Below are positions 7,975-61,239 of a DNA stretch of 64,000 bases, piece after piece. Source of the DNA: Flavisolibacter tropicus (GTDB taxonomy: Bacteria > Bacteroidota > Bacteroidia > Chitinophagales > Chitinophagaceae). The position numbers and the translations under genes are program-made. The stretch is from positions 5,659,501 to 5,723,500 of the forward strand of contig NZ_CP011390.1 of assembly GCF_001644645.1 (NCBI RefSeq), written 5' to 3'. The notes under the pieces are model-generated. The model was not told the origin of the DNA. It saw only the letters and a list, made by a program, of their open reading frames with translations, and ran no database searches. How positions within the stretch are numbered: the first letter of the stretch is position 1; each line of letters opens with the position of its first letter.

Positions 7975-8745
7975 ATGAAACCAGTATTATTTGAATGGAA
8001 CGGATTGGCGGTCCACTCGTATGGACTAATGATTGCCTTGGGGGTAATACTGGGTGCCTGGTATTTAGAAAAGCAGGGGCAAAAGGAAATAGGCATGACC
8101 TCTAACCAGGTAACGCAATTGATCGTTCTTTTGTTTGCAGCTGCCTTTATTGGCGGAAAGCTGTTTCTCCTCTTTGAGCGCGATCACTTCAAGATCGGCG
8201 ATTTCTTTTCCGGTAGTGGATTTGTCTTTTATGGCTCCTTTATATTGGCTGTGCCGACCATGCTCTGGTTTTTTAAAAAGCACCGATTTCCTGTTTTTCG
8301 CACGCTGGATATAATGGCGGTTACTACCTGCATTGTTCACGCTTTCGGTCGGGTGGGTTGCTTTATGGCGGGTTGTTGTTATGGCAAACCAACTGGAACG
8401 AATTGGGGCGTTGCCTTTACAGATCCGGCCAGTAGTGCCGAGCCGTTACATATCTTATTACACCCGGTACAACTGTATGAAGCAAGTTATATATTACTGG
8501 TAGGCGTGTTTCTATTAGTGATTCGCCAATACTTTAGAAGGTTCTACGGACAATTGTTTTTGACATACCTGCTGCTGTATGCTATTGGAAGATCTGTTTT
8601 AGAGACCTATCGCGGTGACTATGTACGTGGGTATGTGTTTGGGCATGTTTCTAATGCCCAGTTTACGGCTATTTGTATCACCGTTTTTACGACGGTCTTA
8701 TTTACATGGTTGTATCGATCTGGAAGGTTAGTTCGTATAAAGTAA
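7975..8745 (+). CDS. lgt: Prolipoprotein diacylglyceryl transferase
   Basis: Lgt moves diacylglycerol from phosphatidylglycerol onto the lipobox cysteine of prolipoproteins, the first step of lipoprotein maturation in the inner membrane. The 256-residue protein has about seven hydrophobic segments. The signature HAFGRVGCFMAGCCYG starts at H122, and LHPVQLYEA and YLLLYAIGRSVLETYRGD follow. The many lipoproteins in this window are its substrates. A 15-codon ORF starts one base after its stop codon (see 8747). Confidence 0.95.
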   Translation: MKPVLFEWNGLAVHSYGLMIALGVILGAWYLEKQGQKEIGMTSNQVTQLIVLLFAAAFIGGKLFLLFERDHFKIGDFFSGSGFVFYGSFILAVPTMLWFFKKHRFPVFRTLDIMAVTTCIVHAFGRVGCFMAGCCYGKPTGTNWGVAFTDPASSAEPLHILLHPVQLYEASYILLVGVFLLVIRQYFRRFYGQLFLTYLLLYAIGRSVLETYRGDYVRGYVFGHVSNAQFTAICITVFTTVLFTWLYRSGRLVRIK

Positions 8746-8746
8746 A

Positions 8747-8794
8747 ATGGCTAAACCGGGATTTGGGGAGATTAAGGTATGGAAGGAGAATTAG
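8747..8794 (+). pseudogene. Possible start of a four-helix-bundle protein gene (remnant)
   Basis: Starting one base after the lgt stop, 15 codons read MAKPGFGEIKVWKEN and then stop. FGEIKVWKE resembles the N-terminus of four-helix-bundle (S23/intervening-sequence) proteins, which often begin with an F-x-D/E-L-K-V-W motif. The rest of such a gene is absent. Bases 8754-8773 also match, base for base, part of the inverted repeat around the GxxExxY gene at 61 kb, so the match may reflect a shared repeat instead of a gene remnant. Confidence 0.35.
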
Positions 8795-8899
8795 CTAATT
8801 AGCTGATGTGAAGATTAGCTAATGGAGTTGACAGGTTTACAAGTTAAAAAGTTGACAAGGAAGGAGGAATAATGAATGATGAGTGAAGAGTGATGAGGG

Positions 8900-9190
8900 T
8901 TTTGTATCTTTAGAACTCTTCTTTTCAGAGTAATACTAACTCTTCTTATTACACTTTTCTATACTATTTCTTATGGTTTACTGAGATGATAAGGTAGCCT
9001 GATACGAGCCAAGATACGGGTGAGGTAGGGCCGAGATACGGGTGAGATACGGGTGAGATACGGAGTTAAGTAGGCTGCCATACGGAGTAACCTAGTCTTC
9101 CATACGGAGTAACCATGAAGGGACAGAGGCGTAGCCATGAAGGAACTATGGAGTAGCAGGCTAGGTAGATAGGAGGACGAGGCATGTTTA
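8900..9190 (+). repeat. Intergenic array element, copy A
   Basis: This element fills the gap between the convergent genes lgt and the FadL-type porin. A head (8900-9000) contains TTTGTATCTTTAG and a 34-bp core at 8942-8975 that is 33/34 identical to copy B. It is followed by an array of degenerate 11-12-bp units of GATACGGGTGA type (about 9001-9070), then CATACGGAGTAACC units and other TAC-centred short repeats to about 9190. No coding potential was seen. Confidence 0.7.
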
Positions 9191-9244
9191 CAACTCCGAA
9201 AAGTAATTTGGTTAGGACGGCTTATTATCATCTTGTATAGTCAT

Positions 9245-9270
9245 AAAAAAAGGCGCTTTAAGCGCCTTTT
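9245..9270. terminator. Bidirectional terminator
   Basis: AAAAGGCGCTT and AAGCGCCTTTT form an 11-bp stem with A- and T-runs on both sides. It lies between convergent lgt and the porin gene, 26 bases past the porin stop. Confidence 0.85.
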
Positions 9271-9295
9271 CCCGTTTATAAATAAGCCTTGGTTG

Positions 9296-10861
9296 TTAGA
9301 ATTTAAAACCTACCGTTAGCAGCACATTGCCTGCAGTATTTTTAACCTGGGCGCCTTCGTAGGATGCATATTGTAATCGGTAAGGGAAGTTAACATCTTT
9401 ATTGAGACTGTGAACATAGGTTAGATCAATAAAATAACCCTTATCGCGATAGCCAAGGCCGCCACTCAGGTTCAGCTTATGGCCATTTTCGCCTTGATTA
9501 TCTTTATAAGGGTTGCCATAATAAGCTGCACCGGCGCGGAACATAAGGGTGGTAAACTTCAATTCTCCACCCACTTTAAAGTTGAAAGCTCCTTTATAGG
9601 CTTTATCAATGGCCTGGTTCAAGGTTTTCAGGTATGATCCATCTGAAGAGCCGCCGCCTTCTTCTGAATTATCTGTTTTATAGGATGAAGCTTTATAGTT
9701 TACATACTCCACATCAGCCGTTAAAAAACCACGTTGTTTGGTTACATCTTCAATCTCACGAAGTACATAAGACACACTACCCATTACGCGGTAAGGGGTA
9801 ATCAACAAATATTTGTATTCTGCCGGGGCATTATAGGTATAATCAAGTGAATAATCGGTATACACTACATTGTCGCTACGTTCCACATCGGCTGTAACAT
9901 AGGATTGATATTTATCGGTAAGGCTGTAAATAGTAGGTGTGTGAAAAGCCAAACCTACCCGCCAGTATTCAGCTGGCTTGTAAATCAACCCCAACTTAGC
10001 ATTAATACCAGCGCCTTTTGTTGTTGACTGCTCATTAATAATGGCATAGTTAAAATGGTTATTTGGATTCTCCGTAGCATCTGCTTCCGTAAAATTGGAC
10101 GTCTTGTCGTAGTTTAAGAAGGGGATACCAATAGAGCCACCCAGCATCAACTTGTCGTTAAAGTTAGCAGCCAGACCTAGGGCAAACTCATAAATGCCAC
10201 CGCGCGTACGGAGTGTTTGCTCTTGCAATAAGCCTGTACTTACAATATTGGCTGCTCTACTTTGAAACTGGTAGTTGTTTGCCGAGCCACCAGCAACGGT
10301 GTCTAACAAGTAGGCATTGAAAGCCAATGCTCCATTAAAAGGCGTTTGGTTATAGTAATCGGCTAATTGATTAGCGTCTTTGATATTGTTATTCTGGATG
10401 GTTTCTAAGTATTGCTGTGTATAGGATGATTTGGTATTTAACCCTCTATAAAGGAGGTCGCTGTTAAACTTGCCCATTGTATTAAAAGCAATACTAAAGG
10501 CGGTATTACGAACTTTTTTGTTTGGGTTACCGCTTGATCCAGCTACAAAGCCAGTCGTTCCCATGACAAAGTTGTTGTACTTGTCACTTTCTTCTCTGCC
10601 CAGGTAAGTGCTTTTGTTTTTGCCAAATCCATAGCCAGGGGAGAGGACAAAGTCTCCAGTTTTATAAAAAGCTAAACCAGCGGGGTTTACAAAAGTGGCA
10701 GAAAGATCCCCGCCCAATGATGTCATGGCGCCACCAACTGCTTGTTGACGGGCTGTGCCGCTGGGAACGAGCCAGGAAAAGCGTAAGGCATCGGCAGGCT
10801 CTTGTGCCGAAACAGTATATGCTGATGCGATCAGTAAACAGGCAAGCAATTTTCTTTTCAT
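9296..10861 (-). CDS. OmpP1/FadL-type outer membrane protein
   Basis: A 521-residue outer membrane beta-barrel of the FadL/TodX group, which lets hydrophobic compounds through the outer membrane. The chosen start at 10861 gives the signal peptide MKRKLLACLLIASAYTVSAQ; an in-frame start at 10924 would bury it behind 21 residues. The mature N-terminus has the family pattern GTARQQAVGGAMTSLGGDLS and FVNPAGLAFY. Alternating amphipathic strands run to the end, which finishes in KF. The Tyr/Ser-rich lipoprotein gene lies 97 bases upstream on the same strand and may be co-transcribed. Substrate unknown. Confidence 0.85.
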   Translation of the reverse strand: MKRKLLACLLIASAYTVSAQEPADALRFSWLVPSGTARQQAVGGAMTSLGGDLSATFVNPAGLAFYKTGDFVLSPGYGFGKNKSTYLGREESDKYNNFVMGTTGFVAGSSGNPNKKVRNTAFSIAFNTMGKFNSDLLYRGLNTKSSYTQQYLETIQNNNIKDANQLADYYNQTPFNGALAFNAYLLDTVAGGSANNYQFQSRAANIVSTGLLQEQTLRTRGGIYEFALGLAANFNDKLMLGGSIGIPFLNYDKTSNFTEADATENPNNHFNYAIINEQSTTKGAGINAKLGLIYKPAEYWRVGLAFHTPTIYSLTDKYQSYVTADVERSDNVVYTDYSLDYTYNAPAEYKYLLITPYRVMGSVSYVLREIEDVTKQRGFLTADVEYVNYKASSYKTDNSEEGGGSSDGSYLKTLNQAIDKAYKGAFNFKVGGELKFTTLMFRAGAAYYGNPYKDNQGENGHKLNLSGGLGYRDKGYFIDLTYVHSLNKDVNFPYRLQYASYEGAQVKNTAGNVLLTVGFKF

Positions 10862-11675: not shown

Positions 11676-11948
11676 AGTAGATGTTTTAATCGGTTGAGAG
11701 GGATGTGTTACTTTTGCTCGCACGAAAGCAATGCCATCGCCTAGTAAAATTCTGCAATTCGCTGTTAAACAATTGATAAAGATTAGTCATAGATTAATAG
11801 ATGTAAGGCAGAAATCAAAGCATTTTGGATTGTGTCCAAATCTTTAATTTAAAAGAATGACGCTAAAGTGTCATTCGCGGTTGTAAGTGATGATGAATTA
11901 CTTTCGGCTTTCATAAACACAAACAAAAACGTAGAATTAATAAATAAG

Positions 11949-13426
11949 ATGAGTAAAGCAATTACAACAAGACAAGAAGATTATGCGCAGTGGTATAATG
12001 ATTTGATCTTAAGAGGCGGTCTGGCTGATTATTCAGCTGTACGTGGCTGTATGGTGATCAAGCCGTATGGCTTTGCTCTATGGGAAAATATGCGCGATGA
12101 ATTGGACCGCATGTTCAAAGAAACAGGTCATCAGAATGCCTATTTCCCCTTATTTGTACCAAAAAGTTTGTTTGAAGCCGAAGAAAAGAATGCGGAAGGC
12201 TTTGCAAAAGAGTGCGCTGTTGTAACACACTATCGCTTAAAGACTGACCCAAATAATAAAGGCAAATTGATTGTAGATCCGGAGGCAAAGCTGGAAGAAG
12301 AACTGGTGGTTCGTCCTACCAGTGAAGCCATTATCTGGAACACTTATAAAGACTGGATCCAGTCTTACCGTGATCTGCCCATCCTGGTAAACCAATGGGC
12401 AAACGTAGTACGTTGGGAAATGCGTACACGTTTATTCTTACGTACGGCTGAATTTCTGTGGCAGGAAGGTCATACTGCGCACGCTACAGCAGAAGAAGCC
12501 ATTGAGGAGACTACGAAAATGCTGGATGTTTATGCCCACTTTGTGGAAGAATACATGGCGGTGCCTGTAATAAAGGGTGTGAAATCTCCAGCAGAACGTT
12601 TCGCAGGCGCTGAAGATACCTATTGCATTGAAGCCTTAATGCAGGATGGTAAGGCGCTGCAGGCAGGTACATCGCACTTCCTGGGACAAAACTTTGCTAA
12701 GGCCTTTGAGGTAAAATACCTGACCAAAGAAAATAAGCAAGAATATGTTTGGGCTACCAGCTGGGGGTAAGTACCCGCTTAATTGGGGCATTGGTAATGG
12801 CACACAGTGACGATCAGGGATTGGTATTGCCGCCTCGCATTGCTCCATTACAGGTAGTGATTGTTCCTATTTATAAAGGAGACGAGCAACGCGCCGAATT
12901 AGGCGAAAAGGCTAATGAGTTAATTAGCCAGTTAAAAGCTATGGGCATCCGCGTGAAGTATGATGATAATGATAATACACGTCCAGGTTGGAAGTTTGCT
13001 GAATATGAACTGAAAGGGGTACCTGTACGCATTACACTTGGTGCAAGAGATATCCAGAATGGTGTGGTTGAAGTTGCCCGTAGGGATACTAAAGAGAAAA
13101 ACAATGTGTCTTTTGAGAACCTGGCACAGCATATACAGGGCTTGTTAGAAGAGATCCAACAAAATCTGTTCAACCGGGCCAAATCCTTCCGCGACGAACA
13201 TACCACTTCTGTAGATACCTGGGAGGAGTTTGTAAAAGTATTGGATGAAAAAACTGGGTTTGTTGCTGCCCATTGGGATGGAACCGAAGAAACAGAAGCG
13301 GCTATTAAAGAGAAAACTAAGGCAACCATACGTTGCATTCCTTTAAATAACCCGCAAGAGCAAGGCAAGTGTATTCTTACGGGAAAGCCTTCTTCTCAAA
13401 GGGTATTATTTGCCAGGGCTTATTAA
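11949..13426 (+). pseudogene. proS: Prolyl-tRNA synthetase, broken by a frameshift
   Basis: ProS charges tRNA-Pro and is essential. The first part (11949-12770) has the class II motif 2 region [20 protein letters not shown] and ends [12 protein letters not shown]. The second part (frame of 12749-13426) continues exactly where motif 3 should: [20 protein letters not shown], the anticodon-binding domain and the C-terminal FARAY. Joining them with a -1 shift in the G5 run at 12763-12767 gives about 492 residues, the usual length for this ProS type. One missing G (G6 to G5) explains everything, so a sequencing or assembly error is likely. The start at 11949 is preferred over a GTG at 11868. Confidence 0.9.
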
Positions 13427-28514: not shown

Positions 28515-28779
28515 TCAGGGTAGCTTCATAGTACATTCATAGTAAAGCCTATGTAAAGCCATAGTAATGTCATAGTAACCTGTAGGTTCACCCGTACTTC
28601 ACCCGTACCTTACCCGTACCTCACCCGTATCTAGCCCCGTATCTAGCCCCGTATCAGGCTATCTATGCACCGTATCAGGCTATCTACGCACCGTTATAAA
28701 CTCATAAGAAATAGTATAGAAAAGTATAATAAGAAGGGCTGAAAACACCCTAAAAGAGAAGAGCCTAAAGATACAAAAA
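28515..28779 (-). repeat. Intergenic array element, copy B
   Basis: Read on the minus strand from 28779, this repeats the plan of copy A: TTTTTGTATCTTTAG, a divergent stretch, a 34-bp core at 28703-28736 (33/34 identical to copy A), TAGCCTGATACGG units, then GATACGGGGCTA and GTACGGGTGA units, and finally TTACTATGA-type units to about 28515. It also lies between convergent genes (metallo-hydrolase and pdxJ). Inverted 10-mers CGTGAGACGT occur at 28332-28341 and, on the minus strand, 28873-28882. Confidence 0.7.
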
Positions 28780-59996: not shown

Positions 59997-60754
59997 TGCG
60001 CTGGCTAATCAAACCATTTCAACTTTTATATTGCATCTATGCCTTATTGCTATTTGTAGCATTGATGCTGATTGTTTTTCCGTTTGCCATCCTTTCTTCA
60101 TTTTTTGGAAGGATCAATGGTGGCAATATGCTGTACCGCCTTTGTATGGTTTGGGCCGACCTGTGGTTTCCGCTGGTAGGCATCTTCCATAAGAATATAT
60201 ATGAGCAGCCTTTACGAAAAGGCGCTTCTTATGTATTTGTAACCAATCATACATCCTATTTAGACGCCGCTATCATTCCTAAGGCGGTTCGCCAGCCGGT
60301 ACGTCCATTAGGGAAAGTGGAGATGGCTAAAGTGCCCATCTTTGGCTACATCTATAAGAATGCGATAGTAACAGTGGACCGTAGTTCCGCGGAGAACCGC
60401 TCTAAAAGTGTGCGTATACTACGGTCGGTATTAAGTAAAGGGGTTTCCATTCTCTTTTTTCCCGAGGGTACTTTTAATGAATCCGGTAAACCGTTAAAGT
60501 CGTTCTATGATGGTGCTTTTCGTATTGCTATAGAGACTAAAACTCCCATTAAACCAGTGCTTTATGTAGACGCTTACGAGCGATTGCATCCTCATAATAT
60601 CTTTTCTTTAACGCCAGGGAAAAACCGTGTTGTGTTTCTTCCAGAAATTCCAACGGAGAATCTAACGAATAAGGATATTGCTGCATTAAAGCAGCAGGTG
60701 TATGATTTAATGGATACTAAGCTTCGCGAATACGGTGCTTCATGGATTGTCTGA
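59996..60754 (+). CDS. 1-acyl-sn-glycerol-3-phosphate acyltransferase-like protein
   Basis: A 252-residue PlsC-type acyltransferase that would acylate lysophosphatidic acid or a related lipid. Two hydrophobic segments at the N-terminus anchor it in the membrane. The catalytic motif NHTSYLD (NHx4D) and the substrate motif FPEGTFNESG are both present. Starts within TAATG overlap of the DUF4258 gene. Its last three codons (60746-60754) belong to the left inverted repeat of the GxxExxY cassette. Confidence 0.88.
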   Translation: MRWLIKPFQLLYCIYALLLFVALMLIVFPFAILSSFFGRINGGNMLYRLCMVWADLWFPLVGIFHKNIYEQPLRKGASYVFVTNHTSYLDAAIIPKAVRQPVRPLGKVEMAKVPIFGYIYKNAIVTVDRSSAENRSKSVRILRSVLSKGVSILFFPEGTFNESGKPLKSFYDGAFRIAIETKTPIKPVLYVDAYERLHPHNIFSLTPGKNRVVFLPEIPTENLTNKDIAALKQQVYDLMDTKLREYGASWIV

Positions 60755-61239
60755 ACCGGGATTTGGGTAGATTTAGGGATTAATAAGATGAATATTGGGA
60801 ACTTATGGAAGACTATAAATACAGGGATATAACGGAAAAGATTATTGGAGCTGCAATGCGTGTTCATGGAACATTGGGTAATGGCTTTCAGGAGGTTATT
60901 TATCAAAGAGCTTTAGAAATTGAATTCCAAGATGTTAATTTGAGGTTTACCCGAGAGTTGGAAATGCCAGTTTATTATAAAGGGCAACAAGTAGGTGAGC
61001 GCCGGGTAGATTTTTATGTAGAGGAAAAGATTATGGTTGAATTGAAAGCAATTATCCAATTAGAAAATGTTCATTTGGCTCAGGCCAAGAATTATTTAGA
61101 GGCATATAACATGGAAGTTGGGCTGCTGCTTAATTTTGGGGCAGCAAGTTTGCAATTCAAAAGGTTGAAAAATCCAAAGTTTATAGAAACAACTTTTCTA
61201 CCTAATCCCTAAATCTCCCCAAATCCCGGTTCCGACAAT
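60746..61239 (+). mobile_element. Candidate mobile cassette: GxxExxY gene between 37-bp inverted repeats
   Basis: The left repeat (60746-60782) and right repeat (61203-61239) are inverted and agree at 35 of 37 positions; both contain AACCGGGATTTGGG. Between them is only the GxxExxY gene. The left repeat includes the acyltransferase stop codon, the right one includes GxxExxY's last codons and the first two bases of priA. No target-site duplication is evident and there is no transposase, so movement would need factors from elsewhere. A 20-base piece recurs exactly at 8754-8773. Confidence 0.5.
60805..61212 (+). CDS. GxxExxY protein (PDDEXK-like)
   Basis: A 135-residue protein of the GxxExxY family. 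The motif that names it reads GNGFQEVIY (G-x-x-E-x-x-Y), near residue 27. The core has VDFYVEEKIMVELKA, which fits the D-x(n)-E-x-K active site of PDDEXK nucleases. Members are scattered in accessory positions in Bacteroidota and other bacteria, and their role is unknown. This copy is bounded by inverted repeats and its final codons (PNP-stop) are encoded within the right repeat. Likely a recent or mobile insertion. Confidence 0.85.
   Translation: MEDYKYRDITEKIIGAAMRVHGTLGNGFQEVIYQRALEIEFQDVNLRFTRELEMPVYYKGQQVGERRVDFYVEEKIMVELKAIIQLENVHLAQAKNYLEAYNMEVGLLLNFGAASLQFKRLKNPKFIETTFLPNP

Follow-up and report, generated by a model that had tools for sequence, protein, structure and literature searches.

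What is the array of short repeats that lies between two convergent genes at positions 8900–9190 of a 64,000-nucleotide stretch of the Flavisolibacter tropicus chromosome (the window), and with what does it go together? A sequence-only reading of the window had described this array (copy A) and a second one at 28.5–28.8 kb (copy B), and had placed each between convergent genes, where both indeed sit. The two copies are laid out as follows.

8900..8913, plus strand: copy A, left edge, formed by a promoter-like −7 box, TTTTGTATCTTTAG (head alignment)
8927..8943, plus strand: copy A, hairpin of 5 bp (AGAGT/ACTCT) whose loop varies (moderate covariation)
8944..8975, plus strand: copy A, conserved stretch rich in pyrimidines, TCTTATTACACTTTTCTATACTATTTCTTATG, belonging to the core first noticed from the sequence (pattern search, head alignment)
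8976..9000, plus strand: copy A, linker preceding the first unit (sequence)
9001..9056, plus strand: copy A, degenerate 11-nt units of the GATACGGGTGA type (window repeat search, phase analysis)
9057..9111, plus strand: copy A, class 1 units ATACGGAGTTA / ATACGGAGTAA, spacing 22 nt (matches at 9058, 9080 and 9102)
9112..9162, plus strand: copy A, tail end rich in purines (ATGAAGGGACAGAGGCGTAG..), common to other class 1 copies (purine ~0.7 over 60 copies)
28766..28778, minus strand: copy B, promoter-like box TTTTGTATCTTTA (sequence, head alignment, head model)
28703..28765, minus strand: copy B, head with hairpin and pyrimidine-rich stretch (window repeat search, head model)
28590..28680, minus strand: copy B, degenerate 11-nt units (window repeat search)
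28530..28596, minus strand: copy B, class 2 tail TACGGGTGAACCTACAGG..ACTATGGCTTT.. (class 2 match at 28596 on the minus strand; blastn with B)

Parts of A and B pair at 81–86% in a repeat search within the window. Copy B extends from about 28778 to 28530 on the minus strand, and its head is the top-scoring copy of the head model, at 103 bits. In copy A the GATACGGGTGA-like units are followed, as had been read, by ATACGGAGT units, of which there are three, exactly 22 nt apart; the array of GATACGGGTGA-like units is present, but it comprises about five of them by eye rather than the nine first counted. Copy B had been read as the order of A on the opposite strand, which holds for the head and the 11-nt units on the minus strand but not for the tail, which is of class 2 (..TACGGGTGAACCTACAGG..) and not made of CATACGGAGTAACC units. 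Rfam detects two tRNAs only at the gathering score in the whole window, and three weak matches, all under that score, at 8700–9300. Elsewhere in the window, another dispersed repeat like GTCTGAACCGGGATTTGGGGAGATTTAGGGATTA occurs at 8748–8780 (before A), 60746–60782 and 61203–61239, the copies at 60.7 and 61.2 kb forming an inverted pair with 95% identity. At 11868–13426, a prolyl-tRNA synthetase-like gene, recognized by eye, is split into two overlapping ORFs in different frames (11868–12770 and 12749–13426), an apparent frameshift or sequencing error.

Copies A and B belong to an element family that is found genome-wide, far above chance level. In the F. tropicus contig of 5,940,863 bases, a 22-nt piece of the core (CTTTTCTATACTATTTCTTATG) with at most three mismatches has 24 occurrences, compared to none for the reversed control pattern, so that the core marks a family of many copies and not a pair. 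Blastn gave at least 43 matches with copy A and at least 47 with copy B, 40 of the 80 first-look candidates being scored in each case. A head model found at least 60 heads in the 5.94-Mb genome among the 150 scored of 4268 candidates, many of these 60 matches being the model's own training sequences. For comparison, 57 copies were compiled from fetched places, and 53 of them entered the head alignment, which leaves out three copies with a different head and one near-duplicate; seven further places were fetched after the head-model search. The place at 1287582 (locus L061), a match to the pattern at two mismatches, is in neither the 57 copies nor the 60 model matches. Outside this genome, blastn detected none in 28 other genomes, and a covariance model found no F. 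tropicus head in 243 other genomes of the family, a weak search in which the best 17 candidates or fewer were scored per genome. The class 1 pattern had four single matches in a named genome collection that may omit the F. tropicus record, and the element had no match in viral contigs. No 11-nt array family of this kind was found in the open-licence literature searched. Altogether, the earlier view holds in that the element is intergenic, present in many copies, structured and unfamiliar, and that its phased units resemble iterons.

One role first proposed for this element was that of a transcriptional barrier between convergent genes. The placement of A and B agrees with it, as does a terminator-like hairpin about 340–350 nt past the box, on both strands for B and on the reverse strand only for A. 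However, the neighbours of the 57 copies are convergent in 15 cases, divergent in 14 and tandem in 28, close to what all gaps of 30 nt or more in these loci show (42, 53 and 99, respectively). These counts leave the predicted enrichment at convergent 3′ ends unsupported and make a barrier highly improbable. Enrichment near the terminus, whose position GC skew puts at roughly 0.8 Mb, finds no support either, as the copies spread evenly over twelve bins (5 5 4 5 4 5 6 6 6 5 4 5). Nor are the copies scattered at random inside genes: 49 of 57 overlap no ORF of at least 90 codons according to a simple ORF caller, and the other eight overlap a short ORF (96–124 codons) that may itself have counted as a neighbour.

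As a separate observation, the 60 heads are spaced more evenly than chance (CV 0.75, lower-tail p 0.01), with a dispersion p of 0.0002 in 12 bins and 0.12 in 20 bins, uncorrected for the choice of bins. A replication-strand bias was considered and dropped (36/60 heads codirectional, p 0.16, origin and terminus being placed roughly by GC skew), and parS gave no match at two mismatches. The congeners are distant: the protein adjoining A has 51–67% identity in the 16 of them that match, and in these 16 loci no match to the other neighbour of A was detected within ~1.5 kb of the adjoining protein's gene. Insertion with clean ends was rejected, since the boundaries vary between copies: shared identity starts at −5 or −6 in 13 of 45 best copy pairs, and many pairs share longer upstream modules. 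Neither the terminal inverted repeats nor the target site duplications expected of a MITE were seen by eye in the flanks of four long copies.

The head has eight columns that are invariant in 53 copies; the first box supplies five of them with its TA and TTT, whose two intervening bases vary; this invariance is partly circular, as the heads were gathered by fuzzy match to the box. The first box is promoter-like in that it matches the Bacteroidota −7 consensus TAnnTTTG, as quoted in the available text of PMC7366714 and PMC9723704. The invariant box and its variable centre would suit a multicopy small RNA (sRNA) family, in which the head would serve as a sigma-A promoter, the transcript would be an unstructured RNA and the 11-nt units would bind or titrate an RNA-binding protein. 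We regard this main rival as rather unlikely. In its favour, TA..TTT[AG] is enriched upstream of F. tropicus genes (126 forward vs 71 reverse), also with TTG 18–21 nt before it (21 vs 7), whereas the exact TATCTTTA is too rare there to show enrichment (3 vs 2). A TTG at the −33 spacing (19–21 nt) accompanies the box only 20 times in 60 heads. Covariation of the head hairpin, which also counts in favour of an sRNA, is moderate overall: 79% of cells are paired and 32 cells are changed on both sides, each reached in 0 of 500 shuffles, while two of five measures lie within the shuffle range (pairs changed on both sides in 202/500, pair types in 95/500). RNAalifold alone predicted no pair in the head alignment.

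Other observations speak against an sRNA. Whole-element RNA folding is no better than that of shuffles (mean z 0.46 over 12 copies), and a larger RNA structure was accordingly rejected. Forward terminator-like sites follow 19 of the 60 heads (20 sites, compared to 26 reverse sites and 3 in shuffles) and often coincide with a reverse one. In the available portions of the literature, the multicopy sRNAs FopS and GibS of Bacteroides are alike in being paralogous intergenic units with several copies in a member of the Bacteroidota; the 14 members of the FopS family combine a 5′ stretch that is single-stranded with a Rho-independent terminator hairpin (PMC11697453). The element here carries an 11-nt array and no consistent terminator; of a promoter at the 5′ end it shows the −7 box, with the −33 TTG at the right spacing only in the 20 cases given above.

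The tail is in 11-nt phase over its whole length. Identity at lags 11, 22, 33, 44, 55 and 66 is 0.45, 0.51, 0.40, 0.38, 0.36 and 0.32, respectively, against 0.24–0.26 at neighbouring lags, and the phase holds to lag 66 and beyond though the units differ. Successive occurrences of the motif TA[CTG][GA][GA] are spaced by 11, 22, 33 or 44 nt in 277 of 529 cases, and by 12 nt in 52. The unit core is TAYGG, with TATGC and similar variants, and the purine content rises from 17–35% in the head to 55–72% in the tail. By array class, the 60 heads divide into 40 of class 1, 16 of class 2 (four of them gene-bearing), two of class 3 and two of none.

Such an array could also be passive repetitive DNA that currently serves no function: slippage would have lengthened the arrays, and ectopic recombination or gene conversion between intergenic repeats would have spread them. 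The divergence of the copies, their non-uniform boundaries (32 of 45 best pairs not starting at −5 or −6) and the abundance of other periodic intergenic repeats in F. tropicus are consistent with this explanation. By contrast, the −7 box is constant, the phase persists through differing units as if indels were selected against, and the array is linked with one gene family in several genera, a link that was replicated (below); we thus consider passive DNA unlikely. The other periodic repeats are conspicuous in their own right: 69 kb of background intergenic DNA (loci L085–L104 and L112–L117) contains strong period-7 repeats (z 15.1 at lag 7), with words such as GCTGCAAGCTGCAAGC and TTCAATGCTCAATT, and genomes G003 (3.2) and G112 (3.3) have a weaker signal. 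The tail peaks at lags 11 and 22 and not at lag 7. The described heptamer TAACTGA repeats are likewise phased, short, direct and mostly intergenic, and occur in some Bacteroidota as well; they differ in having period 7 and one fixed sequence, and the available text of PMC4679880 reports no head or linked gene family.

The linked gene emerged from the long copies. Loci L063, L105 and L106 share one unit of ~1.13 kb, 87–93% identical, that runs from −5 of the head into a gene of ~200 codons, and L060 shares 986 bases with L106 at 98.6% identity, starting at +120. The identity shared by the long copies ends ~20 nt or less from the gene's stop codon. The encoded protein of ~200 residues has the motif MARQ/MAKQxGPxxxTGTIDDxxFYK, and a search of the F. 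tropicus genome with it gave 31 matches at 30 loci. The N-terminal half of the family is conserved and the C-terminal ends are very variable; longer homologues occur (L244 and others), and open frames of ~250 residues in other families of the class give matches. None of four proteins scanned matched Pfam or NCBIfam above the curated cut-offs, and searches of PHROGs, PADLOC and the PDB turned up nothing meaningful; the top PDB match, which spans 23 residues at E 0.0003, is taken as chance. Among 48 aligned members there were three unrelated weak Pfam matches, each in one or two members, and a longer homologue likewise had no worthwhile database match. No catalytic motif was found in the family. 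The gene family was not found in phage or viral contigs, and gave one weak match in plasmids.

At 28 of the 30 loci, an 11-nt array or unit that fits a class pattern lies no more than 1 kb upstream of this gene; the other two match no class. In the F. tropicus genome, the class of the array goes with the subfamily of the protein, the classes having been defined after these sequences had been seen. All six members of subfamily MARQxGP..TGTID(D/S)IT have a class 1 array, all five of subfamily MARQAGPLFITGTIDDM a class 2 array, and 14 of the 16 of subfamily MAKQ(V/I)GP, among which one broken and one shortened copy are counted, a class 3 array. The three MAKQxNQYYIG loci have just one class 1-like unit each; without them, 25 of the 30 loci match a class pattern. 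Arrays occur away from the gene as well: in 520 kb of background, class 1, for which two units were required, was counted at three places, class 2 at two and class 3 at three. The solo copies, including A and B, mostly have a class 1 or class 2 array and no gene. In addition, a second head (TTTAGTAAATTTA..TTTAGTTATACACAT) is seen upstream of the gene and divergent from it, before class 1 or 2 arrays, at L040, L041, L047, L118, L133, L135 and L136; its TTATACACA resembles a DnaA box.

The linked gene is present in 95 of 294 sampled family genomes and in 47 of 101 genera, F. tropicus included. In other genera, the 400 bases upstream of it have z values of 5.2, 6.2 and 3.0 at lags 11, 22 and 33 (27 of 29 loci, two being too short), whereas the background z at lag 11 is 0.2–0.7 in G003, G112, G045 and G049, 2.9 in G140 and 3.8 in F. 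tropicus. With the test fixed beforehand, 20 new loci gave 8.7, 9.7 and 6.2 at the same lags, and the box motif 16 times forward and three times reverse, in 12 of the 20; these z values overstate the signal, because 18 of the 20 loci came from genomes of the first set and paralogues are not independent. A test with one locus per genome was run for the former reason. The excess at lag 11 is positive in 23 of 28 loci, compared to 50 of 89 background gaps of at least 200 nt (rank test, p 0.001), and the box is present in 18 of 28 compared to 3 of 89, so that the link between gene and array is still supported once repeated genomes are removed.

The box of the other genera, RCGCYTTTA, lies upstream of the gene, is followed by phased units and differs from the F. 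tropicus head. A widened pattern, [AG]CGC followed by CTTTA, TTTTA, TTTA or TATA and drawn after the 49 loci had been seen, occurs 44 times in 36 of them. Identity at lag 11 after the box is 0.394 vs 0.244, and TAYGG after it occurs 31 times on the box strand and nine times on the opposite strand in the 49 loci. The box motif is rare 500–900 nt past the gene start (three in 26 loci). Upstream of the box a single T is clearly conserved (1.34 bits, other positions at most 0.42), a point against the sRNA explanation. The box does not in general coincide with a hairpin, the mean z of 50 sites being −0.37, and a long palindrome around it, seen in only a few loci, was discarded as a feature. The class beyond the family gives a weak signal: 24 loci, two of them from the family, have two boxes and a z of 3.6 at lag 11. 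Thus the array accompanies the gene family in F. tropicus and, with another box, in other genera of the family.

The orientation of the box raises the alternative that the array is a leader or operator by which the gene regulates itself, the solo copies being relics of lost genes. In other genera, 37 of the 44 boxes point toward the gene and lie 114–490 nt ahead of its start, as this explanation predicts. In F. tropicus, however, all six class 1 arrays point away from the gene (one with an additional unit toward it), class 3 arrays point either way (eight toward, six away), and of the 60 heads four belong to gene-bearing units, while the other 56 copies have kept the head all the same. A leader or operator is therefore improbable.

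Among described systems, the nearest in its way of working is that of REP/REPIN elements and RAYTs, although the present system is not a member, differing in transposase and palindrome. According to the available text of PMC2817692 and PMC3116915, the transposases of IS200/IS605 are relatives of RAYTs, which lie between two palindromic REPs in inverted orientation. Both systems comprise dispersed non-coding intergenic elements that fall into classes, with an associated gene family adjoining the same repeats, and in both the class of the repeat goes with the class of the protein (here in F. tropicus only, with classes defined post hoc). Compared to these published descriptions, the protein here belongs to no known family, and the four proteins scanned have no Y1 (HuH) IS200/IS605-type match in Pfam or NCBIfam. 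Moreover, the arrays lie upstream of the gene and consist of 11-nt phased units, with no general hairpin and no inverted pair of flanking palindromes, and the gene itself is present at ~30 loci.

We favour, at a probability of roughly 0.4, a partnership of gene and repeat that would work in a REP-RAYT-like manner, the arrays being multi-site targets of the cognate protein. The element, intergenic and dispersed, with its promoter-like head and the 11-nt units phased behind it, would be one part of this wider system. The product of the gene, or a partner of it, would bind the array at one site per 11 nt, a spacing that may represent one turn of DNA or else a string of single-stranded RNA sites. 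Binding of this iteron-like kind, one of the roles initially suggested, would fit both the 11-nt phase and the linked gene family. The solo copies, A and B included, would be gene-less derivatives that rely on the cognate protein to spread and persist, as REPs rely on RAYTs; alternatively, recombination alone may have copied them. A similar likeness exists to the plant element En/Spm, which has many short subterminal repeats bound by protein, and whose gene-less dSpm derivatives share the sites of the gene-bearing element. En/Spm is a DNA transposon, and the terminal inverted repeats and the transposase that it possesses are not seen here.

Several findings weaken the proposed partnership. The correspondence of array class and subfamily may equal co-duplication of paralogues together with their upstream DNA. 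The orientation of the array to the gene varies, arrays occur away from the gene, and the background of G140 reaches a z of 2.9. The protein has neither a catalytic motif nor a known family that would point to a chemistry of mobility, and terminal repeats or target duplications are not apparent by eye. Two of the 30 F. tropicus loci match no class. Finally, blastn and the weak head-model search did not find the F. tropicus head in other genera, whose box is a different one, and the signal is weak outside the family.

Nevertheless, similarly built arrays beside an uncharacterised gene family in relatives suggest an undescribed partnership of repeat and protein. A bolder version, which we put forward tentatively and hold to be doubtful, is that the Bacteroidota harbour a genome parasite, or a regulatory network, of a kind not described before. 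In it, a protein family would have its own arrays of sites one turn (11 nt) apart, every subfamily would be paired with a matching class of array, and the protein would keep dozens of arrays that lack a gene scattered and evenly spaced over the chromosome. An uncharacterised protein family, present in almost a third of the sampled family genomes, thereby gains a candidate nucleic-acid partner. If the partnership is true, it would be a second, unrelated bacterial route by which non-coding repeats are kept in classes beside a protein, and it may account for part of the strange periodic intergenic DNA in these bacteria.
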